Of a DNA stretch of 64,000 nt, positions 1-59,872 are shown in pieces; positions within the stretch are counted from its first letter, which is position 1; every line of letters begins with the position of its first letter. A program made the translations under genes and the position numbers. This stretch comes from Halichondria panicea (Eukaryota > Porifera > Demospongiae > Suberitida > Halichondriidae): contig NC_087384.1 of assembly GCF_963675165.1 (NCBI RefSeq), forward strand, positions 4,705,182 through 4,769,181, given 5' to 3'. The notes under the pieces are model-generated. The model was given only the letters and a program-made list of their open reading frames with translations, ran no database searches and was not told the DNA's origin.

Positions 1-720
1 CGTTTTTGTGTATATCTTCTAAACTAAATGTGATTGGATCAATTTGAGTGCAGGTACTGAAAGTTCAACTATTGGCGCTTCCAGTGGACCACCACCTGTT
101 ACATCATATGACATCATCATTCCAAAATGGCTGCTAGAATATGTGTACAATGGAAAATATGTTAGGCATGGAACTATCTTATATGTTTGAGTTAAGATCT
201 GAAATTTGTTGTGCAAGTACTTCATTACCTTGCACATCTTTGAGCTCCAGCGGAAGTGCAGGCTGTTAGTAGGTTCTGAGATACACAGAATTTTGTAAAT
301 TTTTAGTAGCAAATGTGTTAGGCATTGATTTTTTGAGTTTATGCTAGTTAAGGTCTGATTTTTGAGGAGCATGTACTACAATAGTATACTTTTCATTTGT
401 ACTAACTTACAGGAGCTAGACCAGTCTCTTCTTTGCTAGAGTGGCCCTTTTTGCCAAAAATGGTGATTTTAGCTGATTTTCACAGTTTCTGTTGCGAAGT
501 AGTGTAAGTTGCCACGCCCCTGTGACACATTATGACTGATCAACTGGGTGTAGTTACCAGGTTAGATCACATGAGCTTGGATGTAGCAAATAAAGACAAG
601 ATGATTTGTGATGTCACAAATCAATGAATATCATTGCTTACGTCAGCAAAACGGGCAAAGAGCAGCAAAATGGAGCAAAATCACCATTTTTGACAAGAAG
701 GGCCGCTCTAGCAAAGAAGA
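1..720. repeat. Partial copy of a foldback (long inverted repeat) element
   Basis: The sequence matches, in the same order, the left arm and spacer of the complete foldback element at 13.76-15.02 kb. It shares the stretch reading 'ctattggcgcttcca', the 'cacgcccctgtgacaca' block, the 'gatttgtgatgtcacaaatc' palindrome and the 'gggccgctctagcaaag' block. The left end lies outside the window. The right arm is missing: homology stops near 720, so this copy is truncated. The short open frames inside it are not genes. Confidence 0.8.
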
Positions 721-10600: not shown

Positions 10601-13600
10601 TCTGTATGCTCTTTTGTTATGCCTCGGTGCGCATGCGCAAGCGAGGTATACGGTAGTGTGTTTGTGTGTCTGTGTGTCTGTCTGTCTGTCTGTCTGTGTA
10701 GACTGCTACAGCTGCTCAAGGATGAATCAAGTGCAAGTAAGAGTTTCTATAGGCTTCTAGTCATGTTTACTTGGATTTTAATTCGTGGATTTGCAAAATA
10801 ATGCTTCATTGTCGAGTTATGCCTAGTTTTGCTTACTAGGAATGCCATTGCAGCCTTTTCAGAAGAGCACGTAGCCAAACTTGTTTACCGAGTGTTGCTA
10901 CTCTACTTAGTAGTTAGCTCTGCACTAAAACGCTAGCTATTGGTAGCTGCAAGAGTGAGGAAGAGAGCTGCAAGGCTCTGCTGATGGCAGCCATTAATTT
11001 TAGACTTGAACTTTTGGCATAGATCGTTTTTAACAATAATAATGATCGATCATTACCCACTCTGTGAGTTTTTGCATGCAGCAAAATTATCAAAGCTATT
11101 AGTAGCTTTATGTTATGTAGCTTTGGCATCTTCGCCGAGGCATCAGCACCTGCGGTGCTTTCATTTTGATCAGTGTTTTGGAATCGTGTGTTGATCTATA
11201 GTATAATCCTAGCTACAGCTAAAGTGTATCAGTCTATCTGTCTAGCTATAGATCACTACAATCGCTTATATGCAACAGGTCTATTTTGACAGAGAGGAGG
11301 GGTGGCGCTGTACCGTTTGCTTGGAAGGAGGGACTGGCTGCTTATAATTATTCTGTCCAGGCTGGGCAATTGCGCAAGACTTTGAGTGTGGACAGGGTCC
11401 TGGTGTGGACAAGCTATTTTTTCCTGGTTGTCTTCTTGTCAATATAGTGTTGCTATGTGGTAGTCATGCAAGCTTATATAGCTGGATGCATATAGCAGCC
11501 AACCAGATGGGACATATATCAGTTGCATAGTGCCTCGGGGTTTATGACAGTAAACCTGAACATTATTATACTATTGATTTATAAGCGTTTATGATGAGGT
11601 ATTCTGCAGTTTTATTAACGTTTTCAGCTGTGGCCGTTATTCGAAAACAATTAATACGTTGTCATTGACAGTGTGGAATTCTCAACAAGTAATTGCACAT
11701 CGTCAATGACGACGTGCAATTACTGGACCGGATGTGATACGGGATTAATTGCTGTACAAACTCCAGTTACAAATATCACATCATACGATTATCATATAAG
11801 TATAATTATAAATCATTTATATGTCTTTGTGTTCCGCTAACAGCAGTTAATGTAATCATGTGGTTGGTAACAACGGTGCATATTCGCTTGGGTCACTGAT
11901 ACGATGTGGAAGGGTTTCGTTATCTGTAGACGATCCTGTCTGGTGTGTAGCTCGTCTTCGGTGGCAGCAGCTATAATCACATCGACTAGTGAGGGAAGAT
12001 TTCATCCATGAAAGGAACATTACGATGTACAGCACTAGTATAAATGTAACAATAATATAGACAAAAAACCATGGGCTATTCCTAAATGCTTCGTGGTAAA
12101 TGTACCAAGCTGACCCCATTGCAAACAGTACTAGGAGAAAAGCATCAAAATAGTTGTAACGGTCTTTCTTGTATGGTCGTAGGCTAAGGATGATAGCAGG
12201 TGTAATAATGAAGATCATTTGGTACACAATAAAGTGGTACTTCTGTGCACCAAAGGCTATGAATATTATTCTCAGCAGTAGGTAGACGCCAGCAAACCAT
12301 CGACAGTCTCTAGTACCAGGTGTTGTGCCGTTCTTGAAATAGCCCTGTGTGATGTTTGCTAGCTCGTGAATTAGAACACATTTGATTTTGCAGGAAAAGA
12401 GACACCTCTGAAAGAAACGATTCTGGTAGAATAGCAGAAACACTGCTGGTAGGAGTACCATGGTAACAGTGATGATTGATGAGAGTATAGCAAGTGGAAT
12501 GTAGGTGCCCACGTTGAAATCAGCTGCATAGTAGAGAGTGTATGTTACATTTCCGTATTTATCATGTAAAGGTACTGGCTTTAAGAGGCTTAAAGAAATC
12601 GAGCAAAACCTGCTGTAGGATAGTAAAAAAAAGCTTGCAAATGCATTCACTACAGAGCCTTTTAGTTCCCAGCGTCTTCGAAACCTTGCTAAGCACTTGT
12701 GAAATGGCCTCCAGCAAATTACAATTATCTTGCATCCTCTGTCGTGGAGTGAAATGAACAAGTAGACAGCCAAAGTGAAAAGGATTGGATATAGAGCTGC
12801 TAGGTACTCCATTGCTATTACTGTAAGTGTGCTCATGTGCTCACTGATGCAAAACGAAGGAATTAGAAACATAAAGAAGTCCAAATTAAATAGCCCTACA
12901 AAATCAGCGGAAAACTTATAAAAGGAATAAGAGTAGGTATATCCGCTTATTTCAAATGGGTTATTTCTACACAATACAGTGTTTAGCAATTGAGCAATCA
13001 AAACAAAACTGTACAGAACTGGGGAGGCAAAACTTATCCTGAACACAATGACAATAACACAAATCAAAGTCAATGGTACTGTAAGCCTGATAAAGAAGAG
13101 TAGCCATCCTAAAGGTTGTGGCATGCATTCCTTACACTCTTTGTAGTAAGAGAAGACGGCCGGTCCCAGCCCTGGTTGGCAGTGACTACAGAGCAGTCCT
13201 GTGCGATTGAGAGGACCACACAACTCCTCATCTAGCTTTGATACATCAGAGGGTACATCCATGAATTTTGATAGTCGACTTTTTGTGTTGTATGGGCACG
13301 GACCAAAATATTCTGTATCATTGTTGTAGGTTATGCAGAAACCGTCTAATATTTTTGTCTTGTTTGTCACATTCGAGCACTGCAATATAGTATTGATCGG
13401 TTGTCCGCACTCACACTTATTTGCTTGGCGTATAAACCATGTTGGGCATACTTGACTAGACACCAGAACTACCTGTAGTACGATCACAATCACTCCAAGT
13501 ATCGTCATCTTCAAATTCTAAACTATAGAGGTCTATATACTCATCAACTATTGTTCTGAGTAGGAATATTATGAACTGAAACGTGTTTGGTCTCTTTTTA

Positions 13601-16600
13601 GACAACTTCTGATACTAAAAACCAACACTAAAAAATATCGGTATGCATGAACTCGGTCTTCAAGCATAAACATGACACTGCATGTAGCTCTTCTTTACCC
13701 TCATTTCTCCCGCATAGCCCTAGTTATATTGATTCTGAAATTAATGCTTTCACTATAAACACTGCATGTACAGTGCAACAACCAAAGAGAGTAGATTTTT
13801 TTTTTTGGTACACATTTTTTACATTTTGTGGCATATCTTCTAAAGTAAAAGTGATATGATCTATTTGAGTGCAGGTACTGAAAGTTCAACTATTGGCGCT
13901 TCCATTGGACCACCACCTGTTACATCACATGACATCATCAGTATAAAATGGCTGTCTGAAGATGTGTACTTCCGAAAATATGTTAGGAATAGAAGTAGCT
14001 TATTTGTTTGAGTTAATATCTGAAATTTGTTGTGCATGTATCTGAGTATATTGCTCATCTTTTGAGCTTCAACAGAAGTCTGGGCTACTAGTAAGTTCTG
14101 AGAAATACTGCATTTTGTTGTTTTTTGGTGGCAAATATGTTAGGAATACAACTTTCGATTTTATATTAGTTAAGGTCTGATTTTTGAGCAGCATGTACTA
14201 CAATAGTGTACTTTTCATCTGTACTAACTTACAGGAGTTAGGCTAGCCTCTTCTTTGCTAGAGCTGCCCATCTTGTCAAAAACAGTGCTTTTTATGACTT
14301 TTGAGGCGATTTGGCTACGTAGTAAGCTCAATTACCACGCCCCTGTGACACAGAATGACCAACACCAACTGTGTATTTGCAGGTAGACATCACATGACCT
14401 TTGGATGTAGCAAATAACAACAAGATGATTTGTGATGTCACAAATCAATGAATATCATTGCATACGTCAGCAAAAGTAGCAAAACGGAGCAAAATCACCA
14501 TTTTTGACAAGAAGGGCCGCTCTAGCAAAGATAAGACTGGTCTAGCTCCTGTAAGTTAGTACAGATGAATTCTATGCTATTGTAGTACATGCTCCTCAAA
14601 AATCAGACCTTAACTAGCATAAAATCGAAAGTTGTATTCCTAACATATTTGCCACCAAAAAACAAGAAAATTCAGTATTTCTCAGAACTTACTAGCAGCC
14701 CAGACTTCCGTTGAAGCTCAAAAGATGAGCAATATAGTCAGGTACATACACAATAAATTTCAGATCTTAACTCAAACAAATAAGCTACTTCTATTCCTAA
14801 CATATTTTCGGAGGTACACATCTTCAGACAGCCATTTCATAGTGATGATGTCATGTGATGTAACAGGTGGTGGTCCAATGGAAGCGCCAATAATTGAACT
14901 TTCAGTACCTGCACTCAAATAGATCATATCACTTTTACTTCAGAAGATATGCCACAAAATGTGAAAAAAAAAATTAAAAAAAAAATCTACTCTCTTTGGT
15001 TGTTGCACTGTACATGTATGTTCCTGCAGTGCATGCATGTTGTTGATATATTAAGAAACCCTGCGAGTGTGTTTATAATCAAACATAGTAAGCTTATTAT
15101 ACCGTATACCGTATAGTGGGTAATTTTCGTGGGCAGGCTGACCTCCACGAAATTTTATCATAGGCGTGGCTTATCTGAACGTAGGAATGCCGTGCAGCCA
15201 CGAGACTAAACGAAATTTTTACTCACGAAAACTATCGTTTCTCGAGTTGAACGAATTTGTTACCCCATGAAACTTACCCGCTATACGGTAGAGGGTAATT
15301 TTCGTGGGGTAAAATATTCGTGGTTTTCGTGGTTGAAGGTCTGACCACGAATATTTTACCCACAAATGAAGCGACCTTGCTTACCTTTACCTGCAGTGCA
15401 AGCTCCAACCACAAAAATATTACCCATAAAATGTCTCAATATTGCTGAACCACGAATATTTTGTCCCCCGAAATTACCCGCTATACAGTAGTCTCTATAT
15501 ATATATATATATATCCATGTGCTAATGCTGCTAACAACTCCATGGAATTTTAATCGGTGCGTATTCGCTTGGGTCACTGATACGATGTAGAAGGGCTTCG
15601 TTATCTGTACACATTCTGGTGTGTATGTGCAGGGCTCGAAATTACAGTCGGACAACTGACAAAATCCGGGCATTATGTGAACATGACTGATTACTGCACT
15701 TGTTAGTCAGACATTTTGTCAGAGCGTATACGTGTATACATGTAGAGCTAGCCAGAGATAGGGGTTAGCTGTTCTAGCCCTTGTCAGAGTTTTAGTAGTT
15801 TATAAAATTATTCGTTTGAGGCGTAGCCGCATGTGGGATACGGTAAAGCTGACTCTGACTGTCTGTTTATGCATGTGTCTGTCTGTTTGTGTGTCTGTTC
15901 CAGCTGTAACTGCATGCTTAACAGTTGTAATGCAATGAAAACTATAGGCTTCTAGCCACGTTCTCTTGATTCGTGGATTAGCAAACTAAAGCTTTTTTCC
16001 TGAGTTATGGCTAGTTTGACTCACAGTGAAGGCTGTTGCAGTCTCTTCAGAATCTTTCATAGCATCATCTGTTCGCAAAAACATTTAACTTATGAGTTAG
16101 CTTTGCACTAAAGCGCTAGCTGTTTGTTAGCTTGCTATTGTTATACCCGAGGCCGTGCCGTGGCCAGCGGGTATAGTAGTCTGTTGATTTGTTTGTTTAT
16201 TTGTTACCCCGAGGCACACGTGGGTGGCCACAGGTATAGTAGTCCGTTGGTTTGTTTGTCTGTCTGTTTGTAATAATTATGTGAGTCTTCTTACCTGGAT
16301 GCCACAGCACTTCGTTTACAGCATGGATAGTCTTCACACAATACTTTTAATAGTGACAGCTTTCTATGTTAAAGCCTCGTTGTCGAATAAAAACAAGCAA
16401 AAGCTAAGAAACTTGAACTTGCACGTTGGCCTCTAGCTTACAGGCGTCCTTTATTCGAGGTATGTCTACGTATTTACAGCTGAAGTGATCCTGTACCAGG
16501 AACAATGGAAAAGGGTCACTAAAGTAGAAAGCTAGAATTGCTTCTTTGCTCCTAGCCCCAGAAGATACCAGGAGTCATATTTCTAAGACGGCGCTATAGT

Positions 16601-19600
16601 GCATGTTACATTTCCGTATTTGTCATAAAAGTAAATTGGCTTCAACAGGCTAATTTAAATCGAACACAACTGGCTGTAAGATGTAAAGACAAAGTCAAAC
16701 GCATTCACTATACAGAACGTTTTAGTTTTCCATGCAACGCCTCCGAAACCTTGCTAAGCACTTGTGAAATGGCCTCCAGCAATTTACAATTATCCTGTAT
16801 CCTCTGTCGTGGAGTGAAATGAACAAGTAGACAACCAAAGTGAAAGCGATTGGATATAGAGCTTCTATAGGTACTTATAATTGTTAGACTGTATGTGTGC
16901 TCATGTGCTTGTTGATACAGAACGAAAGAACAAAAAAAATTAACTAATAGCCCCACAAAATCAGTGGTAAATCTATAAAAGAACAATTTACAGCAAATGG
17001 GCCATTTCTACACAATACTTAGTACTTGAGTAACCAAAACAAAGCTATTCAAAATTGGAGGAGCAATATTTATTTATTCTGAACACAATATAACAATCAC
17101 ACAGAGGAGTTCAATACATGGTACTGTTAGCCAGAATATAGCCATCCTAAAGACTGTGGCATGCATTCCTTACACTCCTTTCACTCATTGTAGTATGAGA
17201 CGGCCGGTCCCAGTTCTGCATGGTTGCATGGCAGTGATTACAGAGCAGCCCTATGCGATATAAGGGGGACCACATCTCCTCGTCTGCATGTAGATCAATG
17301 AATTTTGATAGTTAACTTTTTGTGTTGTATGTCAGCGTCCAAGACGGTCTGTGTCATTGTGTAAGTTAAGCAGGAACCATCTAATATTTTGATCTTATTT
17401 GTCACATTCGAGCACTGAAGTGTTCATCTGTTATCCACACTTAAACATGTTTGTTTGGCGTATAAACCATGTTAGGCATATACTTAACTAGACACTAGAA
17501 CTATACCTGTAGTGCAAACACAATGCATTGTCTATCGTTCTAAATTGTAAGGATAACAAACTGAAACCAGTTTTCAAATGCTGAAAAAATAATATTGAAA
17601 ACCAACAATAAAGGTACATCGATCCCCTTATGTATAGATTCTGAAATTACATGCATACAACACTGCACATATATAATGTTGTAAGGTAAAATTTCCATGC
17701 AGTGTATGTTATTTTTGTGTTTAAAAACAAACCCTGAGTGTTTGTCGTAATAATTACAGTAAGCATAAGTACAGTAATAGTAATTGTTCTACATGTGCTA
17801 CGTATATTCTGCTAACAGCTGAAAATGTAATCAAGTGGTTGGTGGTAACAACGGTGCGTATTCGCTTGGGTCACTGATACGATGTGGAAGGGCTTCGTTA
17901 TCTGTAGACAGTCCTGTCTGGTGTGTAACTCGTCTTTGACAGCAGCAGCTAAAACCACACCAGCTTGTGAAGGCAGATATCATCCACGAAATGAACAATA
18001 CGATGTATAGCATTAGTATTCCTGTAGCAATAATCACCACAAAAAGCCATCCAGTACTCTTGTATGCTTCGCGATAAGTGTACCAAGATGTCCCTATCGC
18101 CAATACTATTAAAAGAAAAGCATCGAAATAGTTGTAACGGTCTTTCTTATATGGTCGTAAGCCAAGGATGATAGCAGGTGTAATAATTAAGATCATTTGG
18201 TACACAATAATGTGGTACGTCTGTGCACTAGAGGCTATGAATATTATTCTCAGCAGTAGGTATACTCCAGCAAACCATCGACAGTCCCTAGTGCCAGGTG
18301 TTGTGCCATTCTTAAAATAGCCCTGTGTGATGTTTGCTAGCTCGTGAATTAGAACACATTTGATTTTGCAGGAAAAGAGACACCTCTGAAAGAAACGATT
18401 CTGGTAGAATAGCAGAAACACTGCTGGTAGGAGTACCATGGTAACAGTGAGGATTGATGAGAGTATAGCGAGTGGAATATATGTGTTCATTTTGAAATCA
18501 GCTGCGAAGAAGAGAGTGTATGTTACATTTCCGTATTTGTCATATAAAGGTATTGGCTTCAAGAGGTTTAAAGAAATCGAGCAAAACCTGCTGTAGGATA
18601 GTAAAAACAAAGTTGCAAATGCATTCACTACAGGAGCTTTTAGTTCCCAGCGTCTTCGAAACCTTGCTAAGCACTTGTGAAATGGCCTCCAGCAAATTAC
18701 AATTATCTTGCATCCTCTGTCGTGGAGTGAAATGAACAAGTACACAAACAAAGTGAAAAGGATTGGATATAGAGCTGCTAGGTACTCCATTGCTACTACT
18801 GTCAGTGTGCTCATGTGCTCACTGATACAAAACGAAGGAATTAGGAACATGAAGAAGTCCAAATTGAATAGCCCCATAAAATCAGCGACAAATTTATAAA
18901 AGGAATAAGAAGGTGTATATCCGCTTATAGCAAATGGGTCGTTTCTACACAATGCTGTGTTTAGCACCTGAGCCATAAAAACAAAGCTATTCAGAACTGG
19001 AGAGGCGATATTTATCTGGAACACAATAACAATAACACAGATCAAAGTCAATGGTACTGTAAGCCTGACGAAGTAGAGTAACCATCCTAAAGGCTGTAGC
19101 ATGCATTCCTTACACTCTTTGTAGTACGAGAAGACGGCCGGTCCCAGTCCTGGTTGGCAGTGACTACAGAGTAGCCCTGTGCGATTGAGAGGACCACACA
19201 TTTCCTCATCTAGCTTTGATACATCAGAGGGTACATCCATGAGTTGTGATAGTCGATTATTTGTGTTGTATGGGCAGGCTCCAAAATGCTCTGTATCATT
19301 GTTGTAGGTTAAGCAGAAACTCTCTAATATTTCTGTCTTGTTTGTCACATTCGAGCACTGCAATATAGTATTGATCTGTTGTCCACACTCACACTTGTTT
19401 GCTTGGCGTATAAACCATGTTGGGCATTCTTGACTTGACACTAAAACTACCTGTAGTACTATCACAAGTATTCCAAGTGTCGTCATCTTCAAACTAAACA
19501 CTAGCTAACAAAAAGATAATATTATCTATTTGGTGTCTTCAACCTGCCACTGCTGAAGCAAACACTAAAAGTGGCAGACAAAACTGTGATTGTGTATGAA

Positions 19601-22600
19601 ACACAAACACTGAGTCATATTGAAACCTAACAGAGTTATTGCATGTACTATCATACGCCTATTATACAGATAGTTATATAGTTTAGTCTGACAAACTGAA
19701 ATTGAAACTTTACTGAAAACAAATACAATTATGATCATATAAGTATACCGGAGTCCGTTTAAAGCTCAAACAGGGTGGCTGGAATAAGGCCGGGGGGAGG
19801 AGGGGAGCTAATCTTTCTTGCCATTATTTGCCACATAGTTTCTCAATTCTCAATGTTCTCACATAATTATGCAGTGGCACAATAGATGTACGTACTGTTG
19901 TCTCAGGATTTCCCCCAAATTCAATTAGCTAATCAACATGTACATAAAGACTTACATATATACGGTACTCCCAAATTCAATTAGCTAGTAGAACAGGGTG
20001 GGCCCCCCTGTTCTTACTGTGTATTCTACTGCTGTGGGGGGAAGCACTGGTATCCTATAGTGTACAGCCTACATTATGTATATAGCCTCACACCGTGTGT
20101 ATACAGTGCATGAAAGTGTTTATTTTACCATAATTATGAGGCACCTATAATTTACCCACTTAAAGCTTTTCTTTTATACCCATTACCTATCCCACCCCAC
20201 ATCACACACACAGACCACGACCGTCTCAAGCATTCACCCCATACTCAGTTACCCTGGGCAACATAGTGCAGGAGCTTCATCGCAGCCTCCTCCTTGCCAT
20301 GGCAACAGAGAGTCAGCATAATACACTGACACAGGTGGTCCGTACATTGGCTCAGTTGGTGGCCAACTGCCCCTATCATCAGCTGTCTGATGGCTATGTG
20401 AGGAGGGTCACAGTGGCAATCGAACGTTACTCTACACACAGAGGTGCGTATAATATAGAGACGTGTGAATTATACTTGTCCGTACATGTGTAGATCTATA
20501 TCTGGCATGTCGGGAGTGCAATTTATGAGCACTGAACTTGACTATACTGGAGTGGAAATACCTCAATTCAGGCAATGATTCAACTCCATAATATAATTTT
20601 TTGTAATCTCACCACAACGTATATTATTGGGGCGAGCGAAGCGAGTCTCTTACCTAGTGAGATTTTGTCTGTCTGTCTGTCTGTGTGTCTGTCATGTACC
20701 GACACGATATTCGGTTTTTGTATAAACACGACCCTTTACCAACTTTTACGTGAAATACTGTGCATGGGCACAACAGCTAGCTACACTCAGCTCAGACAAG
20801 ACACAGAGACTCTTCAGGCCACTGGCAAGCTGTTAGAGCAGCTCAGATGGAGACCTTCTGATCACACAGGCGCGCCTGCAGGAGATCACAGCAACTTACT
20901 TGCTATTTTTCATCAAGGATAGGTCACTAAATACTTGTGTTCAGCATGGTCTTGTGATAATAACCTGCTGGCTCAACAGGACAACACAGAGATCGGACAC
21001 TACGGCAGGTCCAGAGTACCTCAGATGAAAACTTCTGAGGTCACACATGCATGTACCCTTACAACATTAATATATAGGTCAGAGCAAGGGCGTATGAAGA
21101 GAAGAGGGCATGTAACTACAATCTATCGTATTATAAATGGGCGGGGGCTTATGTCTAAAAATAGTAAAGAATGCATTGCACGTGCACTGTTTTTGTGCGT
21201 GCACGATGAAAATATACGGAAACTTACAGAGAAAGTAGCTATTCTAGCTAAGCTAGCTAAGCTAACATACTGCAAATGACTGTAGCTCTCTATACTTAGT
21301 ATAGTAAATGATGCTAACAATACTCCATGACACTATAGAAAGTGAGTAGCATAGTCGTACTAGAAGCAACGAGCCAGAAACCACAAACTTTAAGTTGTTA
21401 CTGCACTTCCTTCGTTTCTTTGACTCCTGTCTTGATGTAGCAGGTATAGCAGTCATAGTATTAAACTACTATACGACTCATAAACTAACAGGAAATGTTA
21501 TACAAGAGAGCTAATGGAAGAAAGTAGATAAAAAGTGCTGGCTCAGAGGTTTGGAGTTTTTACATAGAAAACATAAGCTCACGTGAATCGTGACCAACCT
21601 CCTCTAGTGGGCGGTTGGCTAAATATAGCATATCCTGCTGACTCATCAATAATATGACGCATACACAGTATACATTGTGAGTTGCATGCCCTCTTCTCTT
21701 CATACGCCCTTGGTCAGTACTTGCCAAGGATTTTTCACAGTACGTGGTAATTATACTTGTTATCCTTGTAACTAAAGCTCAGACAAGACACAGACTCTTG
21801 AGGCCACAGGCACACCTGCAGTAAAAACGTGTGATAATAAACCTTGCTTGTCACAATAAACATTAACAAAGAAGACAAATAACTTTGAAAAACTACTTCT
21901 GCATTAATTTCTTAACGTCATTATAGCCTGCCGGCTATGCAGCTCAGTCTCAGCTATGGTCTCAGAGTCACTAGTCCGCTTGCCCCATGACACCTTGTGT
22001 CACTGATATACTCTACCAACTGGAAGAGGATGCATTTTGCAAATGATGATAATAATAGTTATTATTGCTCGAAATGAGCTAATAATTATTATTACTGCTA
22101 TAGTTGTTTGTACTAACATTTCTCTTGCCCTCTAACCCTCCAGATACCAATGTCCAAGTTGCTTGTTTGACGTGTGCCGGTGCCGTGGTTTCCATCAGCC
22201 CTCCTCTGCCTGAGGTCATTAATTGGATCACTAATGAAGGGGGCTCCCCCTGGATCTTGGAATTCTGTCTCATACTACTGCAAACACAAAGTAAGTTGTG
22301 ATGATTAATTTGAATACGTATTAAACGAGTGTTGCAAGCGTGCGCTTGCCAATGCCTCTCGCCATGTTTTTGCTTTCGCTCAAAAGTATTAAAGTGTTAT
22401 AGAAGAGGTAAATAATTTGCAATGTGCTTTGATTGTTTCACAAGAAAGGGGTGTCCACAGTTAATAGTGTATACTGATCGTCTTAAATTGCCTGTAGCCA
22501 AACAGTGGGAGCAAAACTTTGTCAAAGGCATATAGTCAGTATAGTCTGTGAGATATATAGTACAATTCAATCACAGAATTAAATCAACAATACTGAAGCA

Positions 22601-25600
22601 ACTGCATGTTATTTAAATGGCCTGTAGCCAAACAGTGGGAGCAAACCTTTGTCAAAGGCACAGATAATTTAAGCACAGACAGTATAGACTAAGTATATAA
22701 ACAAGCAAAAAGTGTGTTTCTAATACTGAGAAGAAAAGACTTGTGTACATGTAGCTATTGTTACCAGACTTGTGTACATGAATCTATTGTTATCTAGTCT
22801 ATATTGTATCATTTGTTTTGTGGCTTACCTGTATACCAGAACCTCAAGAAAAAGAAGTACAGTAACTGCCACACTGGATTCTCTAACATGTGGGGATGAG
22901 CCCGCATGCGCATTGCATCCACAGGAATAATTAAAGGATGTGTCCAAAGAGATCACAATGGCTACTATAGCTAGCTGTTTTTAACAGATCTTTTCTGACT
23001 CTTGTAGCTAACAAAAAGCTAGCGCTTTAGTGCAAGGCTAACTCATGTGTTGAATAGAAAGTTTGTGCGAACAGATGATGCTATGAAAGATTCTAAAGAG
23101 ACTGCAACAGCCTTCAATGTGAGTCAAACTAGAGAAAGAAGCTTTAGTTTGCTAATCCACGAATCAAAATTCAAGAGAACGTGGCTAGAAGCCTATAGAA
23201 GCTGTTAGTTTTCGTCGCATTGCAACCGTTGAGCAGTTATAGCTGGAATACACACACACATAGACAGACAGAGAGACACACACACACAGTCAGCTTTATC
23301 GTATCCCTTGTGCGGCTACGCCTCGAGGCATAATAACCTGAGGCCAGGTCACGGCCAGCAGGTTATGTAGTCGATTGGTTTGTTTGTATTCTGAGTCTGC
23401 TCACCTGGATGCCATCATAGATAGAAGAGTAAGAGGGATTTGTAACGGAAGCAGTTCACGTGATTATTTTACATTGAACTGCAGTAAAACCTCGAAAACT
23501 ATCCGCGTTACGCCCTATAAACGAGGCTATTTTGCTGGGTAACTCGCTCAAAATAAGAAAGTTGTGTTTTCTCGAGACAAAATCTTTTTCAGCAATTTAT
23601 AACACGCCCAGTCTGCATGCAGCAAAATTAATTATGCAAAAATGTTCATCATGATATAATGTGTGTATAAAGCTATAGCTAGTAGCTTTACAATCCTATG
23701 TACAACCTACTGGTTGTACTAATGTTATGTAGCTGTGACACCCCCACCGAGGCATCAGCACCAGCGGTGCTTTCATTACCTGAGGCACGCGTGGGCGGCC
23801 ACGGGTATAGTAGTACTTTGATTTGTTTGTGATACTTGATGTCTGTTTGTATGTGATACCGTAGAAACAGCGCTATAAGCGTAACTTTATTTTAAGCGCA
23901 TGCTCAACTTGCAGGCTTTTTATACTCGAATTAAAGCGCTTTTCCAATTATGTGAAGGTTGTTAGTGAAATTTTAGAATTGATTCAGCTAATTTTGTTTG
24001 TCTATGAGCTAGTAGTTAGCTTGTATAGTGCATAATAGCTATATCATATATAGCTATATAGCTGGTGATCAGGGGCGTAGCTTAATGGTTTCCTAGTTGC
24101 CCAGAAACCCCCTTGCTTGCTGAAAAATGGGTGGGGCTGATCATGTGCTGAAGTTAATATTGACCACGAGTAGATTAATATCCAGTCTGTATTTATTGTG
24201 CCTATTAGTCACCTTCTGCAATCCAAGATAAGAGACCAAGATCAGCCCAGTTCCTCTACTACTGCTCAGAGTCAGACTCCAGACTGTATTTTACAGTGTA
24301 CAGTAGACTCTCGTTAATCCGGCCACCCTTGGGACCATGCAGCTTGGCCGGAATAACGAGGTGGCCGTACTTCAGATAATTAGCCGCGGCTTAAAAAAGA
24401 CCTTACCTCGAATCTAATCACTGATTGCAGTTCTTGTCTCGAGGATAATGAATCATTCTGCTCTCTATTTAAGTGTAATCCAATTTTATTTACTAAACCA
24501 CACCCAAAACATCATATCCGGCCGTAATACACATAAAATTACATTGAAAACGTTATTTGGGACAGCCAGCACTGGCCGGTGAACGGAATAGCGAGTGGCC
24601 GTACTTCAGGTCGAGTTTTGTGTAGAAAACATATAGCTAGCATTCCGTGCCAAACCAAATGGCCGGTATATCGAGGTGGCCGCATTTCAGAGAGCCGGAA
24701 TAGCAAGAGTCTACTGTATACTGCTAATGGCTGGAGACTAGCAAGAGTATGGATTGATATCTAGCCTGGATTTATTTCAATGCCTATTATTAATGCTAGT
24801 TTAGCTTCTGCAATCCAAGATAAGAGACCTGATTGTCAGCCCAGTTCCTCTACTGCATGCTCAGACTCCATGCTCAGACTCCAGACTGCATGTATATGCA
24901 GTCTCACCACAATCTGATTCTCAGCCACCAACCTCAGAGCTCATGCCCACTGTCACTGTCAATGCCAATGGTACTGATCCTGGTAGTACATTTGTACTTA
25001 CAACTATAAAGTTTAGGAGATGAGGCCGAGGAGAACTGAAGCTACGACTTTTCAAAAAATGCAGCCATAAGGGGTGTAACCAGCATAATTAAGAGGCGTG
25101 GCACCGGAAATGGGTGTGGTCTCAAAAAATTTTGCAGCACTATTGCGCCGCCTTATTCCTTTAGAAACCCCTTTAGTAAATGTCTAGCTACGCCCCTGGT
25201 GATATCCACCTGGAAGGACTCTCTGGGCATGCTATTACCTTGTCTGATCATGCATGCTGAGAGAATGTGATACATGGATGAGGTCCTGTTATTCCAAGTT
25301 CCTGGTCAATATGAATGGTTTTGAATTTAAATGATGTAAATGAACTGTAAAATGAACTGTAACATAATAATAATGATATACATCCAGTTAGTGTTGCTTG
25401 CTTGCTTTGCTTGCTCACTTTCTAGCCAGCTTGCGAGTCAGCTCTCGTCACAGAGACATCCTGTTGCTGGGTGGGGCTCGAAATGACTGCATTATAGGTG
25501 CATTCTCGAATATAAGCGTATAGAGCTCTGCTATTGATCCCAAAAGCGCATGCGCTAATAATCCAGTTTCTACAGTATGGGAGACTACTTACCTGGATGC

Positions 25601-28600
25601 CACAGCACTGTGTTTACAGCATGGATAGCCTCCACATAAAAAGTTATTACCCGAGGCGCGCGTGGGCGGCCACGGGTATAGTAGTATGTTGGTCTGTTTG
25701 TTACCCGAGGCGCGCGTGGGCAGCCACGGGTATAGTAGTATGTTGGTCTGTTTGTTTGTTACCCGAGGCGCGCGTGGGCGGCCACGGGTATAGTAGTCTG
25801 TTGGTTTGTTTGTTTGTTTGTCTGTTTGTTTGTCACAGGTATATCTACTCACCTGGATGCCACAGCACTGCGTTTACAGCATGGATAGCCTTCACACAAC
25901 AGTATCTTGATTTAAGTAGTGGCAGATTTTGATGTTAAAGCTTCTTTGTCGAGAAAAAGCTAAGAAGCTTAAACAAGCTTGTGACTAGGTCTGCTTACCT
26001 GGATGTTCTAGCACTGCGTTTACAGCATGAGTAGCCTCCACACAACAAGTTAGTACTTTGGATAGTGGCAGCTTTCGGTGTTAAAGCTTCGTTGTCTAAT
26101 AAAAGCGAGCAAAATGTAGCTTGAACAGAACTTGCACATGCGTTACTTATAACTGAAGTGATCCTGTACCAAGAACGATGGAACAGGGTCAATAAAGTAG
26201 AAAGCTGAATGTACCAAGAACAATGGAACAGGGTCACTAAAGCAGAAAGCTTGAATTATAGCTCCTGCTTTTAGCTCTGGGATCTAGGACCTGGAGCCAT
26301 ACTTCTCTGAGACTCCAGGCTTCTTTACTGTGATCCTAATCCACAGTGCATATAGTACCACTACCTGTTCTCAAATGTTTCAGCATGCCTCCAGTCTGGT
26401 TTGTTCCTTAGTTGCTGTGCAAGTCATACGTGATAACAACATCACTATATGCACTGCATTATATTTCTGGTTTCTTTATAATCATGTCACCAGCCGAGGG
26501 TTTGCACTTTAGTGCTCTAGTTTGTTTATTTGTTTGTTTGTCACAGGTATATCTACTCACCTGGATGCGACAGCGCTGCGTTTACAGCATAGATAGCCTT
26601 CACACAACAATATCTTGATTTAAATAGTGGCAGATTTTGATGTTAAAGCTTCATTGTCGAGCAAAAGCTAAGAAGCTTGAACTTGCACGTTGGCAGCTAG
26701 CTAGCTACTCGTGGCCTTGATTACGTAGTTGCAGCTGAAGTGATCCTTACCAAATATAATTATAGTAGAAAGCTAAAATTGTGACTGGTTGTTGGCTGAC
26801 TCTGGATCCTATACTCCAGCCTGGCAGGAGCCATACCTCTTTAAGTCTAAGCTCCAGGCTTCTTTGCTGTCATCCCTGTCCACAGTGCATGTCTAATGTG
26901 ACATGTACCACTCAATGTTTCAGCATGCCTCCAAGTCTGGTTTAGTTTTATTGCTCTTGAGTTGCTGTGCTAGTCATACATGCTACATGCACTGCATTAT
27001 CACTCTTCTGGTTTCTTTATTATCATGTCACCAGCCGAGGGTTTGCACTTTAGTGCTCTAGTTACATGTAGTTTCAGATTTCGATATTAAAGCTTTGTTG
27101 TCGTATTAAAGTGAGCAAAACCTAAGAAGAAATAACAGGATCTTAGAAGATGTTACAGGCCTTCTGTTGCCTCCTGAAACATTCACAGCACCTTGTGACG
27201 GGATCCCCATGCATGCATCCTGTCTGTCCCCTATACACATCCGACTAGAAAAACATTTGAAATGTGAAAAATTGCTAGGATTGGCCGGGGGAACTACCAA
27301 AAAGCGTGGAAATCAGACGAGAGCATAACTCTAATCCGTTACTGCTAGTAGCAACTGCATGTAGTCGTTTGGAAACCCTGTACAGAATGTCCTGGAGATG
27401 GCTGTACTTAGAGTAAATGCTGGGCAAGAAACTTACTCACTTACTCACTTACTTACTTACTTACTTACTTACTTAGTCAGTCAGACAATGAGCGGTGAAA
27501 CGTCGAAATAGTGCAATTTTTAAAATCGTTCATTTAAAACGTTCATGGATTATGAAAATAATGAGAGAGAAAAGGCTAAATAAACTATCTGTCCATTCAG
27601 TTTCTTGATGTGGCCTTTCCCTGCAGAGATAGAACAGTTTGAACATGAGTCAAAATAAGTGAAATATTGCTAAACACGGGCAAACCCACTGCCAATCCTA
27701 TGTAAAACCTACTGATGCATGCAGTACTGTCACAGTGTAATCCTTTACACCTATACATGTTAATAACATGCAGCTAAGCCGCCATGCATGCAGGGATGCT
27801 GAATGAGGTAATAGTCTGTATAGGGTGAACTGCATGATTGTGGCTAGTTCACACACATTGTTAGTGTTGCATGCATGTTCTAAATTATTTCACCAACTGA
27901 GCTGATTTAAAGCATGTAAGGTTATCGATAACTATATATATATAATAGTTAACATACACTGTTTTGGAGGTGTCTATGCATGCATGGGATTTAGAAGCCC
28001 AAGGCACTGCTTTAGTATCCCGAGTGTATATAGCGAGGGTACTACAGACAAGTATCTAAGGGCTTCTAATCACATGGACACTGACAAAACAGTGTCTAGT
28101 GTGCATGCGCAAACCTTGCCTTGAGGCTTGACTACAATACAACAATGGTTGACAACGGGATACTATAGGTTATACCTCCTCGATCTGAGGCACTTTGCCC
28201 ATGCATGTAGTTCCTATATGTAGATCTATTAACTGTGTCTAAATAATGTTATTGCTTTCATTAATTGTTTGAGGAGCCGTTCCTAAATAAGTGCTCGTTG
28301 TTAGTATCTATACTGTAGCTATCAACTTTGGGAGCTCGCTTATCACCATAGAGATCCAAAACCATGTATTTTATGCAAAATCTGCCTTGTAACAGCTTCA
28401 CACCTTTTAATGACATGCAGCTAGGCCATACAGGTATTCAGGGCTAATGAATGAGGTATAATCTGTGCATGGGGTGGTGATCTGCATGATTGGGGAGTGG
28501 AGGGGGATTGGGGATACATTTTGCATGTTCTAAAATTGTCTACCAACTGAGCTAATTTGAAGCATGCGTATAATATTATAAGGTTATCGTAATGTTATTG

Positions 28601-31600
28601 ACTCTATATGCTTTCATTGTTGGAGGAGCTGTTCCCAAATAAGTGCTCGTTGTCTCATGAGTATCTACTGAAACTTTGGGAGCTTGCTTATCACCACAGA
28701 GATCCAAAATCATGCTATAATTGTATATATAGGTCCTACTAGTTTACTAGTTTTACAGTATACATGCAGAACTTCAGTTGACCTACCTCAAATTAGGTCT
28801 ATCTGTATCTAGTTTGGTATTGTAGTTAACTGTTAAAGATGCTAGCTCTGATCTTACTCTGCTCTGTTTGCTTTCCTGAAGTTGTACGTGCTGAGTCGAT
28901 CACGTACTTTGTCACTAACAAGATTAATACATCAGCTGTTGTCTGTAATGGCTACCGTTCTTGTCACACTCTAAACGAACTTGCCATTAACTCCTCTTTG
29001 CTATTTCTTGAGTATGCTAACTACAGTCTGGTGCTTGAAGGTGGTATACACAAACTCACCGTTGGGTTAGTTGTCTCCGATATTGATCAGCTCGAAATAT
29101 CTTCATTTGATTCTGAAATTGACATAACATACGGAAACGTAACGGTCTACAATGTATCCAGTTTTTCTATCAGTAATTTTCAGCTTTTCGCATCCGAACA
29201 TCAAAATAAACCAAGCTTCTTTATTTCTAAAACTAGAAAGGCGGTTAAATTTGACAATGTCAACATTTCCAATGTAGGTATATCTGCTATTCTAAATGGG
29301 GGGCCAAGAAGATTGAATTCAGTGTTTGTTATCAGAAACTCAAGTGTGGAGAATTCAGCACTCAGGTTTGAGTTGAAAAACTGCCTCTTGCTTCTATTGG
29401 ACTCGTATTTTTATGGTAACGTGCTTTTTGTGGAAACTACTTTAAGAGTCAATATTGTCTCAAAAGAAAAGATGATACGAATTGTTGGTTGTAGAATTTC
29501 GGGACAAACTTCTTTAAGAGTGCGAGCTGGTTCAGATATTCTGCTTTCTATTGTCGATATTTCTGACACTGTTATTTCAGACACTAATTACATGCAAGTA
29601 GATGGAGGTATACGTTTAGAACGTCTAGTTGTGTACATTGTCATGTATTCTCGAGTTCAGCTCAATATAATGGAGTCCAATATTAGCAGTCTTTTTGCTG
29701 AGGTTTCTGAAGAGAGTTCCTTGTTTATGAATGTCTCTAAGTGCTTTCATCGTCCTATCATAAAAATGTACGGTATTGAAATTAAACAGATGAAATTCAG
29801 TCGATTATTGCTTGATGTTCGAGATTCTGTTTTTGAACATTCTTCGATTGGTGTAAGTATACAAGCTATCAAGTATACTAGTACATCGTTAAAACTACAT
29901 GATACACGTTTTGTTTATTGTCAAGCACTTTCTATATTTTCCAGTGGACGTTTTCTTTATGTATATCTTTTCAATGTTACAATCAGTGGTTCTTTCGACC
30001 AAAATGCTGTCACTATTCAAGCAGCTGCCTCGGAATCATCCGTAGAATTGGTGAAATGCTCTTTCTTGTATAACTTTGGGAACAGGGGTGCTTGTGTATA
30101 CTTTTTATCTAATCCTCAGTCATCATTAACATTAAACGAAGTTTTTTTTTATGAAAATGTTGATCTTACTTCAGATCCAGCTATTGTATTGGTTATTAAT
30201 TGTGACAATGTGATAATACATAATTCCTTGTTCGAATGGAATACAGGAACACCCGTTGAGATTGTTTCAGGCCAGCTATATTTGTCAGGATTCACGTCTT
30301 TCAGGTCTAATATTGCCACAAATGGTGGTGGATTGTCTTTAATCTGTTCGACAGTCATCTTTGAGAAGGGATTGGTGGCAACTTTTGCATCAAACAAAGC
30401 ACTCAATGTAGGAGGTGCTATATATGTAGCGCCTTGTTTTGACCACGACAGAATTGCCAAAAGAAATAATTATAAATTTATATCTACTGTTACGGTATGT
30501 TTCTTTCAAATTTCAATCGGAAGTGAATGGGAAAAGCTCTCCTTAAGGTTTCTCAATAATTCAGCCTTGAATGGTGGGGAGGATATATTTGGAACCTCCG
30601 TGCACAAACATTGTATTGCTCAAAAACATACTCAACTCATTCTAACTCATTTTAACTTGCAGCAGTTATTCAAGATACGTAATTCCAAAAACACTAGTCT
30701 CTCCTCTGTTGCCTCAGACCCTAAGAGAGTGTGTGTATGTGATGACTTTGGGGAGCCACAATGTTCTAGTCTCGACTTCATCTATAACATTAAAATTCTG
30801 TATCCCGGAGAGATGTTTACTGTGTCTTTGGTAGTCGTGGGTAATGATTTTGGCACTGTTACGGCCACTACAAAAGCTGGTCTCCTTGGTAGTACATCGG
30901 GATCTCTGGGGGAGGGACAACAAACTCGATTGGCATTTTTCAGACATTGCACCAGTATACAGTACTCCGTTCACTCATCACGACCAACAGAAACAATTGT
31001 TTTCACAGCTAGTGGTAGTAAACCATTAGCTGCTACTAGACGTAGCAAACTGGAAGATCGTTTAAAAGTTGAACATCAATTAAATAAAGATTCTGTCTTT
31101 GTGTATTTACATACTGAAGAAATCCAAGTGCAACTGCTCACCACTCCTGTGTACTTCAATGTGACTCTTGCAAACTGTCCTCTTGGATTTGAGCTGATTG
31201 GTGACCCTCCATCTTGTCAGTGCCAAAAGGAGCTAGTACAAAACAATATCAAACATTGCATTATTGTTAATCACACTGGCTTTGTGTATCGCAGAGGATC
31301 GACTTGGGTGAATGCTACCTTCAACGGAAACATCAGTGTGCCTATAGTATACAAGTCCTGCCCCTACGATTACTGTCTGAGTGAGAACACTTCCGTAGAC
31401 TTGAGATACCCAGACGCACAGTGTGCTCTGGGCCACTCAGCCACTCTGTGTGGAGCTTGTAGTGAAAATCTGAGCCTGGCTCTCGGCACCAATCGATGTC
31501 TCGACTGTTCCAACACTGGTCACTTAGTGCTCCTCATATTCTTCATAGCTGCTGGCTTTGTGCTTGTGATTTTCATCAAGGCCTTAGACTTCACTGTTTC

Positions 31601-34600
31601 TAAGGGAACTATCAATGGTCTTATCTTCTATGCCAACATTGTGTGGGCAGAAAAAAGCATTTTGTTTTCAAAACAGACTACAGCTCACTCGGTAATGAGT
31701 GTTTTTATTGCTTGGCTGAATCTGGACTTTGGAATTGAGACTTGTTTTGCAGATGGTTTATCAGGTTATCAGAAAGCCTGGTTACAATTCTTGTTCCCTG
31801 TGTATGTGTGGTGTATTGCGGGTCTGATAATTATCTCCTGTCGTTATTCAACAATGGCAACCAACCTGTTTGGGAACAACTCTGTCCCTGTCCTAGCAAC
31901 TCTGTTTCTCATGTCGTATGCTAAGCTACTACGCGCTATCATAACCGTATTAGGATTTGCTGTCCTTCGGTCTGCAGATACTACTGTGTCACAGGTGTGG
32001 CTCTATGATGGTAACATTCCATACCTTGGCCTCAAGCATGCATTTCTTTTCGTAGTAGCTGTCCTGGCTTTACTGTTCCTGTGGCTGCCTTACATGTGCA
32101 CTCTGTTTCTAGTTCCATTCTTCAAAGGCAAGACTCACTATTGGCTCTTTCGTTGGATTGTTAAATGGAAGCCATTTTATGACGCTTACTTTGGTCCTTT
32201 ACACACTGAACATCAGTACTGGGTTGGATTGCTGTTAGTAGTTCGTGTTGTTTTGCTTCTGTTATTCACAGTTGCACCAACATACTCCAACCTCCTTGCC
32301 TTGATCGTAACAACAACTACCCTTTTAACGTATGTGACCCTCTCTGGCTCTGTGTATAAGAATAAATACTTGTCTTTTCTTGAGAACTCGTTTTTAGTCA
32401 ACTTAAATGTGTTAGCAGCTGGAGTGCTGTATCAAAATGTGGTGGGAGGAGACGTAGATTTGGTTGTGTACGTGTCTGTTGGTATCGTGTTTGTTCAGTT
32501 CGTATGCATTACTATCTACCATTGCATTGTCTGTTTGAAGAGTTGTGCCGGCAAGAAGAACCCGCATGGTCGATCTGTGAGAGCTCGTCTGTCTCCCAGT
32601 AAAAGTCATGTGCAGTTTCCCCTTCGAGAGGAGCTTTTGGACCATGAGAATTCGTTATAACTAATAAGTTTGACTCAGATATAATTGTATAGACAAATTT
32701 ACTGAACCATGATACTCATTAGCATAGATTTGTTATGTTTTGTATACTGTCACAAAAGTTTGAGTGTATTGTTGTGATTTTACTTTGTCATGGGATGAGG
32801 TTTTGTGGGGGAGGCATGCACTATGAAATTGAAACTGGCTCATTTATGAACTGTGCAATCTCACTTCAAAACATTTGTTTGCAGTTGGTATATTCGTACT
32901 ATATGCCTTACCATGGATTCTCTTGTACGCACAGACCCGCTAGTGCTTCAGACAGAGGCACTTCAGGTGTTGACGGCGTTGCCACGATTCTACTTCCCTA
33001 CGTTGGGAAGCTCATGGGTCAAGATGGGGGAGGTGTGTGTTTCACTACTCAGCAGGGCCAGAGAGGGGCTGCAGCAACACCTTCTCAAGGTATTACTTTT
33101 TTTAGGGTGGAGTAAATTAATCGAGGCCGCTAAATCTATATATATAGCTCCATGAGTACTATTGGCGTAGCTCACGAATCAAATGAGACGTTGATTAATA
33201 TCACAGTCTTTCTGTTTTCTATACACATTAGTTCTAACGAGTGATTGTATCTTACACAGTGTATTGTGCCTTGTACAGGTGTTTGAGGAGCTAGGTCGTA
33301 CTCTCTCCACGCTGAACCCGCCCCCTCCAGAAGCCGTAAAAATGTGGGAAAGTTTATTGTCTAATCCGCTGACTCACCTCCTCCATACCCCCACGGACCA
33401 CCCCTCACTCTGCTCTCAGAGCTGCAGTGTCCTCTCCACCATTGGACCTCACATCATGAGAAGCGTGAAGGTGACTTATATGTATAATTACGATATGTCC
33501 ACAAATTTAGATTTGATTTCTAGGTTCGGTATGACCCCTTGTATTATGTATATACGTGTATAACAATTAGCCATAGAGTATGCATGGAGTGAGTCATTGA
33601 CAATACTTATACTTTATGTTTCAGTTATTCTACGACTATAATAATATGATGTGCTATGATGGCTTTGTTTCAGGTTCCTTCCCGAGCCCTTGCTCTCACC
33701 CTCCCCCTGGGTCTGTGCAGAGATGAGGCATCCACCAACAGTATAGTGGTCTGTTGATTTTGATTCTGTGCATGTGTATAATATTATTCTTCATGTGTTA
33801 CTTTTTACTGTTCATAGCTGAAGTATATACATGTACGTATGTCCAGTGTTTTCTAGTTATCTCTGAGGTGCACAAAATGCATGGTTATCCTTGTGTTCTG
33901 TTGCAGCATATAATTATGTTGACCTGCATACCGTATAGCGCGAAATTTTCGAGGCACTTATATTTCGTGGATTGGCCTCTAAAAGCATTTCGTTGCACAA
34001 TGTTCGCGGAATGACTGCTTACCGGAATCCACGCCTTTAAATCTTTGCATGTTATAGCAGATATTTCTAATTAAAGAACAATTTTGTGAACTTAATTTTC
34101 GTGTAGGATTGCTAACCCACGAATTAAATCCGCGAAAATTAAGCCCCTCGAAATTTCACTATACGGTATGTTGTTAAACTAGTCAAGGGTGATCCAGAGC
34201 ACATTATACTCTAAATATAGAAGGTGTTAGTTGCTAACTCATGGTTCGTTTCATTGCAGGCCAACGCAGTTCGTGTTCTTGGCGTGTTTGTGACGTATGA
34301 TTCTTTGAGAGAGGTGGATTTATATATACACTCACGGAATGCTGTTATTACATGATTATGTACAGACAAAATAATGTCTATCTATAGAATACCCTCTGCC
34401 ATACTGTCTGTTAAAATTAAGCCTTGTGAAAATACGTGCAGATTGTTTTATTATTTTTCTGTATCAATATTTGTTTCCACTGTTGTACGTAAGAAAATGG
34501 CATGCAGTGTGCTATACAAGAATCACTCCCTCCCTCCCAGGATGAGAGCTTCCTAATTGATAGTCAGTCAGCCATCCTCCATTGTCTGGGTCTCCCTGCC

Positions 34601-52400: not shown

Positions 52401-53507
52401 CCATTATGGACAATACAAAATTAAAGTAGGTGGGTGGAAGGCATGGCTAGTTACTTGTTACATAGAGAAGAAACAAACAAAATGAAAGCACCGCGGGTGC
52501 TGATTATACTCTGGCCTACATGTTATTATATAGTAGGCATGTTATTGGTGAGACAATTTAAAGCAGCTAGTACTTTCAATTCCAAGGCCCTACCTCCCCT
52601 TGCAGGTCCATCCCCACGGCAGATCGAGCACCCATGTTGATAACCTGTCCATGCTCATCGATCATCACCAGAGTAGGTATACCTGGAACAAGGGAAACGT
52701 TACGTTAAGGTAAAAGCTCGGCACACATACATTGTACGCAGTATACACGTATAGTAGGCCGTGGACAGAGGAAGTAGTGATTTCCCCTCTGCTCCCACAA
52801 TACATGGATAGAGAACCCAAAGTGTGTCATGTGTGTCATGCATGTAAGGGTGCAGGAATTATGTGGAAGCATTTGTACTGATTCAGAGCTGAACATACCG
52901 TATAATCTGGTTAATAAGCGCACATCAACTAATAGGCGCATAATGGTTAGCAGACCAAGAGCCTCGATATAGTTCGCACAGTTCTCTGCCCAACAACTGG
53001 TCTTAACACTTCTTTATAGACGTGACGTCTCCTTCACTAGTTGTGCTACTGCTGATACGACTATAGACCTCTTGATCGAGCCAGCTAACATACGTCATTG
53101 AAACGTCATAGGCGTGGTTATTCTCTATAAGCGCATCCAGATAATGAGGCCTGCTCTTTCCTATAGGCGCGGTATATACATTTTTTGTATGCAGGCCCCT
53201 AAGAAAGAAGTAGATAGATATACAGGCCTGTACAATCACAGATTGAGGTATATGGCCTAACCTCAAGGCAATAGTCACACTACATACCTACACGAATACC
53301 GACCTTGAACATCGAACATTCTAGAAAGGACCTTCTTTCTGGGGTCACCATATGGTACACAAATCCAGGGCATGGTGGAATAGTAATCCTTCCACTGTCG
53401 TTCGTCCTTGTCAGAACTGACATAGATTATTTCAAACTTTATGCCCCTAGATCTAAGTTTCTTGTAGATGCTGGCCAGCTGAGGAGTAAAGGATCTGCAA
53501 GGCCCAC

Positions 53508-53553
<46 letters not shown>

Positions 53554-59810: not shown

Positions 59811-59872
<62 letters not shown>

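Follow-up and report, generated by a model that had tools for sequence, protein, structure and literature searches.

What kind of protein is encoded by the cluster of intronless membrane-protein genes at 11856-32660 of a 64,000-nucleotide stretch of the sponge Halichondria panicea genome, and do its short and long genes belong together? We analysed this whole stretch (the window; G000:C8:4705182-4769181) and searched the 131-Mb assembly of 39 contigs in which it lies. The answer to the second question is firm: the short and long genes share one membrane core. For the first question, we give an even chance to the proteins being surface recognition receptors, with a variable ectodomain that would bind and a nine-helix core, guessed to be TRP-like (transient receptor potential), that would signal inward.

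The membrane core of the short and long genes

The sequence-only reading had placed three intronless genes here, and all three were recovered as open reading frames (ORFs) of 550, 551 and 1273 residues, with the following parts.

11856..13508, minus strand: gene A, short type, 550 residues, a single ORF from ATG to stop
13125..13220, minus strand: gene A Cys module, residues 97-128, common to the long type (alignment)
11985..13112, minus strand: gene A membrane core, residues 133-508, nine helices read from the predicted model
17831..19486, minus strand: gene B, short type, 551 residues, a single ORF from ATG to stop
28839..32660, plus strand: gene C, long type, 1273 residues, a single ORF from ATG to stop
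28911..30578, plus strand: gene C beta-helix-like ectodomain, residues about 25-580, weak in C itself, better in relatives
30378..30428, plus strand: gene C POMP/Pmp repeat, residues 514-530 (TIGR01376, 19.5 bits, cut-off 15)
30714..31178, plus strand: gene C immunoglobulin (Ig)-like beta-sandwich, residues 626-780 (predicted fold)
31422..31508, plus strand: gene C Cys module, residues 862-890, DUF7630-like (alignment; DUF7630 matches in relatives)
31521..32549, plus strand: gene C membrane core, residues 895-1237, with a beta-hairpin at 1040-1054, nine helices read from the predicted model

Over 550 residues, genes A and B share 85% identity. A and C start with a hydrophobic leader, which we take for a signal peptide, and the start of B is almost identical to that of A.

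BLASTP of A against C gave no significant link (E 1.6). The comparison of profiles from 21 long and 22 short proteins (hhalign) detected a match of E 7.2e-25 (probability 99.6, 445 columns, 18% identity), which extends from the Cys-rich part up to and including the last helix. The membrane parts alone gave E 6.9e-15, against 0.45 and 0.49 in controls with one side reversed and 0.045-0.18 in five block-shuffled runs. At 23 of 497 alignment columns the same residue was present in at least 75% of the sequences in both sets, which comprised 33 long and 22 short relatives. These conserved columns include five Cys and one Leu from the C..C juxtamembrane module, the LD of NLDF..C with the C after it, LLSY.K, and a YK ahead of the eighth helix. 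The motifs quoted in the sequence-only reading stand in the same order in A and C, and several are among these 23 columns.

AlphaFold models were obtained for gene A with 22 alignment rows (mean predicted local distance difference test, pLDDT, 69.2; predicted template modelling score, pTM, 0.70) and for residues 560-1250 of gene C with 33 rows (mean pLDDT 83.1, pTM 0.72). In both models, compared by helix order as read from DSSP strings, nine membrane helices occur in matching order; a short helix separates the second from the third, a beta-hairpin (A 311-325; C 1040-1054) links helices four and five, and an amphipathic helix follows the fifth. The models differ at one point: the fourth helix of C is a single long one, and A carries an additional helix (260-276) ahead of its fourth. 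Simple hydropathy resolves seven to eight separate peaks, so the count of nine rests on the models; within the seven to nine helices proposed earlier, nine is the model reading and seven to eight the hydropathy reading. With the leader in front and this helix order, the N-terminus and the hairpin are predicted to lie outside and the C-terminal tail in the cytosol.

A tree built from 58 cores places the short type on one side of a branch with support 100/100 and the long types, together with L072 and the L073 type, on the other; the tree carries a program warning about long branches that meet. The competing possibility of unrelated folds in the membrane parts of the long and short proteins was considered, and both the profile match and the helix order favour the shared core that had been proposed.

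The ectodomains differ. Gene C runs from the beta-helix-like region (about 25-580) through the Ig-like sandwich (626-780) to the Cys-rich part; of the roughly 770 residues described earlier as beta-helix, only the first of these regions keeps that description. The Pmp signal in gene C is one repeat above the cut-off of NCBIfam TIGR01376, and Pfam Chlam_PMP stayed below its cut-off (E 0.15); gene C has no rung array, with only two GG sites in the Pmp stretch, although no repeat test was run on C. Among the 21 long members at E 0.1, Chlam_PMP was detected in 19, Beta_helix in 6 (best E 5.2e-18), DUF7630 in 5 (best 0.0029) and NosD in 2, and the best Pfam match in the 22 short members was only E 0.0036 (IBR_1, one member). 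The Ig-like domain of C (best Z 6.3, rmsd, root-mean-square deviation, 2.8, 90 residues aligned) is a very common arrangement with generic matches. DUF7630 (PF24633) falls on the LCG.C Cys module and reached 27.6-27.9 bits at four genome places (cut-off 27); in whole-protein hmmscan it stayed under the cut-off, with 22.6 bits for L073 and 23.5 bits for L072. The proposal of two ectodomain types on one core was right about differing ectodomains, but the genome carries more than two types.

Where the family diversifies

Rapid evolution had been proposed for the group as a whole; we detected it in the long-type ectodomains and in a third branch, but not in the short genes. The ratio of nonsynonymous to synonymous substitution rates (dN/dS), calculated by region for 16 short-array copies (A, B and 14 others), came to 0.33 in the leader and ectodomain together, 0.13 in the Cys module and 0.32 in the core. 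The short array is under purifying selection, with the inner end changing fastest. Positive selection on the short ectodomain, considered by region, was rejected; the ectodomain (0.33) does not outpace the core (0.32).

For the long type, 16 of the 21 rows were compared, five with incomplete N-termini being dropped. Pairwise identity was 0.20-0.24 in the ectodomain (0.55-0.69 of it alignable), 0.55 in the Cys module, 0.53 in transmembrane helices (TM) 1-4 and 0.25 in the tail.

The third branch (L073 type) occupies at least 73 places in the genome, with 56 on contig C6 and 46 within open frames of 1400-1723 residues. In six of its genes (L087-L092) change peaked in the middle of the beta-helix, about residues 281-460 of L087, where the ratio of nonsynonymous to synonymous differences (pN/pS) rose to 0.98 and gaps to 26%; the first-helix windows (1001-1140) gave 0.11-0.34, and pN/pS reached 0.84 in the last 50 tail residues. 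The three genes scanned carry coding minisatellites.

L091:828-1513: unit of 78 bases, 8.8 copies
L092:948-1489: unit of 75 bases, 7.2 copies
L089:926-1351: unit of 81 bases, 5.3 copies

The minisatellite unit corresponds to one rung of 25-27 residues, VSISNSELTNNSADY-GGAI-x-V-x-SGS. The six-gene alignment has 15 gaps that exceed 10 residues, and 13 of them span 25-29 residues, roughly the length of a rung. Apart from a one- to six-residue loop ahead of GG, variation is highest at codons x21 and x23, which flank a mostly conserved Val (131 of 168 rungs). Less variation than at these two codons is seen at the Val and at rung positions 6 and 11, and most framework codons are conserved. Because x21 and x23 alternate around the Val, they may be neighbouring outward residues of a strand and are predicted to be exposed.

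In 128 regular rungs from 33 of 39 genes we counted 14 amino acids at x21, 19 at x23 and 68 different pairs. Within genes, pN/pS was 2.64 at x21 and x23 together against 0.48 at the other 19 codons, and the ratio pN(x)/pS(other) was 2.86 (5-95% range over genes 2.16-3.96). The two codons had been chosen by eye in the rungs of six genes, so the comparison was repeated on 33 later-fetched genes with open frames above 1400 residues, 28 of which had rungs (99 rungs, 166 within-gene pairs). There pN/pS was 1.82 at x21 and x23 (range 1.22-3.39) against 0.47 elsewhere, x23 had the highest pN of the 21 codons and x21 the next highest, and in none of 1000 resamplings of 24 genes did pN(x)/pS(other) fall below 1 (range 1.83-3.01). 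These values hold for rung patterns that retain regular rungs only (168 rungs of 39 genes; 128 of 33) and favour conserved framework positions. Diversifying selection on x21 and x23, together with gain and loss of whole rungs, is shown for the third branch only.

The third bases of the variable codons are mostly fixed, T in 139 of 168 rungs at x21 and C in 126 of 168 at x23. For this reason we considered adenine-directed mutagenesis of the kind made by diversity-generating retroelements (DGR) as the source of the rung diversity, since fixed third bases are what NNY codons have. Fixed third bases are also expected from recent homogenisation of rungs, and the 15 consensus-A sites outside x21 and x23 diverge by 7.4% on average, against 12.7% for C, 9.2% for T and 8.6% for G. 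Consensus-A rung sites are at least as conserved as those of other bases; adenine-directed hypermutation was rejected on this result, and targeted hypermutation of this type is extremely improbable.

Resemblances of the core and the proposed receptor role

The earlier statement that no named family has this plan agrees with our searches: no family for the core emerged when the three proteins were compared with Pfam and NCBIfam, or A and C with PDB sequences. Profile searches of PDB with the long and short cores gave only weak rows (beta-lactamases from E 0.37, thrombomodulin 0.82). The best Foldseek rows in PDB had E 0.51 for the A model and 1.8e-3 for the C model (complement C4b), and the best VIA-align Z was 4.5 for A and 6.3 for C. 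Because the C rows shown lie on the Ig-like domain or begin in it, these PDB searches were hardly a test of the C core. No G protein-coupled receptor (GPCR), transporter or TRP chain stood out in the PDB fold searches, a result that does not exclude them. Literature searches gave no name for the family among the matches listed (titles and starts of abstracts), and no mention of PF24633 or DUF7630 was found in the literature searched. At the sensitivity of our scans, neither prokaryote nor viral contigs yielded a relative of the long core, and the viral contigs yielded none of the short core.

The fold search of predicted viral proteins (BFVD) with the C model gave the strongest lead. Its first three matches are Megaviridae environmental proteins with probability 1.00, and the top one, A0A5J6VHI1, bears the name transient receptor potential ion channel (E 4.4e-4 over 417 columns; template modelling scores TMt 0.50 and TMq 0.32). 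The next two are uncharacterised (E 3.1e-3 and 5.7e-3; TMt 0.52 and 0.46). The TRP ion channel label of such viral proteins presumably comes, as it usually does, from PF06011, the fungal-type TRP domain. PF14558 and PF02221 (ML/TRP_N) were not reported in 43 family members or in two consensus sequences, and a PF06011 profile search of this genome was empty, with controls likewise empty. Given a viral fold match but no PF06011, the core may work like a TRP-like channel and is not filed as a member; we guess that it has a distant TRP-like fold of the fungal FLC/Pkd2 type.

These BFVD matches also speak for another explanation, in which an FLC/Pkd2-like channel, or a lipid or metabolite carrier, was multiplied for osmotic or Ca2+ physiology and the ectodomain diversity is a by-product of slippage. 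A beta-sandwich before a multi-helix domain likewise resembles the ML plus TRP plan of fungal Flc, in the portions of the fungal work drawn on here. However, slippage does not account for two alternating codons with a pN/pS close to 2 amid neighbours at 0.47, and no PF06011 or PF14558 match was reported. We regard this explanation as quite unlikely.

A GPCR family too diverged for Pfam was also weighed. Among GPCRs it is common to find large families of single-exon surface-protein genes whose ectodomains are Cys-rich, which counts for such an assignment. The survey of Amphimedon GPCRs, in the portions of it drawn on here, started from the Pfam GPCR clan and accepted only proteins with five to eight helices (PMC4302439), and would have missed proteins like these. 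Nevertheless, nine helices were read in both models, no 7tm Pfam profile matched in 43 members at E 0.1, and GPCR chains appeared only among the non-significant Foldseek rows. In the 21 long members at E 0.1 there was no Pfam match to the GAIN/GPS region that adhesion GPCRs carry ahead of their helices. A GPCR identity is therefore given only a very small chance.

The proteins could instead be adhesion or matrix anchors, whose ectodomains attach cells to glycans, spicules or one another, whose core only anchors, and whose diversity serves self-recognition or tissue sorting rather than defence. The repetitive beta-helix ectodomain with Pmp-like rungs, the large tandem families and the lack of a sequence link between the core and a signalling family fit this explanation. 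Yet nine conserved helices are needless for a pure anchor, conservation in the long type is highest in the Cys module (0.55) and TM1-4 (0.53), and the first-helix windows of the third branch have a pN/pS of 0.11-0.34. We consider anchors unlikely, though they stand before the channel or carrier explanation.

The receptor role is the best reading for the family; it rests on the third-branch rungs, and for the window genes we infer it. In this role the beta-helix or Cys-rich ectodomain would bind microbes, neighbours or surface glycans and the core would pass a signal inward, ligand binding perhaps changing ion or Ca2+ flux through the TRP-like core. The long repeat-bearing forms would carry the diversity, and the short ones would act as conserved partners or as fixed-ligand sensors. 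Tail motifs may have a sorting or adaptor role: PL[LI] is present in 14 of the 22 short tails and 11 of the 21 long ones, where shuffles predict 0.6 and 0.4, [DE]xxxL[LI] (acidic dileucine) in 9 of 22 short tails (0.9 expected) and YxxPhi in 17 of 22 (6.9 expected), counts that are inflated by the relatedness of the rows.

Several results count against receptors with a TRP-like core. The diversifying signal comes from relatives and not from gene C or the short genes of the window. The fastest parts of the short genes are helices 6-9 (0.50) and the cytosolic tail (0.43), not the ectodomain, and the identity of long-type TM5-9 (0.37) is no better than that of the GG-rung and Cys-rich parts (0.35). 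In the long tails neither [DE]xxxL[LI] (1 of 21 against 1.6 expected) nor YxxPhi (7 of 21 against 7.4) is enriched. Of the 104 and 947 Foldseek rows from PDB for the two models, none reached E 0.001; A0A5J6VHI1, the sole BFVD match below E 0.001, superposes with an rmsd of 12.2 A; and PF06011 was not reported in 43 members (E 0.1) or in two consensus sequences (E 10, with HMMER filters).

A more specific form of the receptor reading is germline recognition by modular minisatellite rungs, with two variable residues each, set on a nine-helix TRP-like core, which would combine the logic of variable lymphocyte receptors (VLR) with channel-like signalling. This form is possible but doubtful.

The family in the genome and among known systems

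With six protein queries we detected at least 263 places in the genome after merging starts within 1.5 kb: 104 of the short type and 159 of the long type, none reached by both kinds of query. The number includes fragments and broken copies and is a lower bound, each search scoring only its best candidates; it used 36 of 38, 75 of 81 and 68 of 70 rows of three queries (small fragments dropped) and all rows of the others, with start positions entered by hand. For one long-type query, 33 of 36 places have an open frame of at least 950 residues and no stop in the match. Genes A and B are the last of 16 near-full-length, stop-free copies on one strand, in a 270-kb array (C8:4455108-4724667). The family is shown to be very large, with tandem growth and decay; it consists of single-exon genes and is probably lineage-expanded. 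Both the clustering and the partial decay described earlier are borne out.

16595..17524, minus strand: broken short-type copy between A and B (tblastn and blastn)
15552..15710, minus strand: fragment matching the A tail, residues 506-546 (E 6.2e-6)
9816..9902, plus strand: fragment matching the A tail, residues 519-546 (E 2.4e-5)
20164..20493, plus strand: HEATR6 exon (DUF4042), host gene between B and C (profile match E 3.2e-19)

In the broken copy, residues 42-325 of A are matched by tblastn pieces in different frames (45% and 55% identity), and blastn identity is 74.7% over 1000 columns.

The genes had been described as nested in HEATR6 introns. One of five exon-like ORFs of the putative host passed the cut-off (20164-20490, DUF4042, which we take to be a HEATR6 domain), and the other four gave no match above it; beyond the DUF4042 exon the HEATR6 assignment is by reading. 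Because A and B terminate a one-strand array, the nesting probably marks no more than the array's end, and the location looks incidental; a meaning for the nesting was rejected on the evidence of the 16 copies at C8:4455108-4724667.

Further large clusters of the short type were observed at G000:C5:1234k-1572k and 2158k-2203k and at G000:C10:4864k-4942k; where listed, their genes are 31-36% identical to A, and several have longer N-terminal parts. Two array copies on contig C8, L082 and L083 (G000:C8:4656410 and 4586107), are 70 kb apart and near-identical (dN 0.002, dS 0), pointing to a recent segmental duplication or conversion. An open frame of 2847 residues at C6:3203344, considered as a possible fusion, was uninformative, its stretch being almost all N.

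Other observations concern the rest of the window and genome. The inverted pair 13765-14292 / 14491-15016 is 92% identical at a spacing of about 200 bases and has a third copy at the start of the window (4-686, 81%); it looks like a mobile element or palindrome. A repeated stretch at 9301-9705 and 39229-39528, both on the minus strand, encodes ...RIAGNFRGVKYS.FSWAGRPPRNF... and is probably an interspersed element with an open frame by chance; the ORF at 35049-35366 (minus strand) has the same terminal letters, IAGNFRG. Several exon-like ORFs at 52005-60399 (minus strand), two with CGPCR.FTPQL, are read as putative tandem nucleoredoxin-like genes. The Rfam scan of the window gave no match. Elsewhere, in 4 of 11 cathepsin-family exon-sized loci read (L061-L071), Ser replaces the active-site Cys, as CGASYAF or CGSSYAF in L062, L068, L070 and L071, and the other seven keep Cys; this Ser we take to be the mark of silicatein, which points to a demosponge.

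With at least 263 places in a 131-Mb genome, the family would escape surveys based on Pfam receptor domains, and it may bear on how sponges distinguish microbes and neighbours. The rung minisatellites provide a direct handle on the recognition role, and a TRP-like core, if true, would bear on the spread of TRP-like folds outside fungi. We suggest a new architecture within a known kind, the lineage-expanded, diversified families of surface recognition proteins.

In fungal Flc proteins PF06011 is paired with an ML-like domain in most but not all homologues (PMC9600462, PMC10732042), and a fungus has two to five TRP members (PMC10732042), as described in the portions of these papers drawn on here. 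Judged on those portions, the sponge family is like Flc/Pkd2 in its extracytosolic domain followed by a multi-helix core, with a giant-virus TRP-named protein as top fold match, and unlike it in having no PF06011 or PF14558 match, in adding a beta-helix and a Cys module, and in its hundreds of places. The SRCR superfamily of the sponge Amphimedon, in the portion of its description used here, shows a massive lineage-specific expansion of proteins with Cys-rich ectodomains, read as immune diversity (PMC10855680). Large lineage-specific expansion and Cys-rich ectodomains are common to both, whereas the family described here has no SRCR match (43 members) and has a multi-pass core and single-exon genes.

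The 45-position profile of DUF7630 (PF24633) covers the Cys module, but only about 33 residues of these proteins. Chlamydial Pmp proteins share the GG[AI] beta-helix repeats (Chlam_PMP in the 19 long members given above) and the repeat alone: the C-terminal part of the sponge proteins is modelled as membrane helices, and no autotransporter barrel profile was matched in the 21 long members. Lamprey VLRs carry a leucine-rich-repeat solenoid with variable residues at alternating strand positions. The third branch is like them in having a repeat solenoid with variable alternating residues, and unlike them in that its repeats are beta-helix rungs and its variation lies between germline genes.

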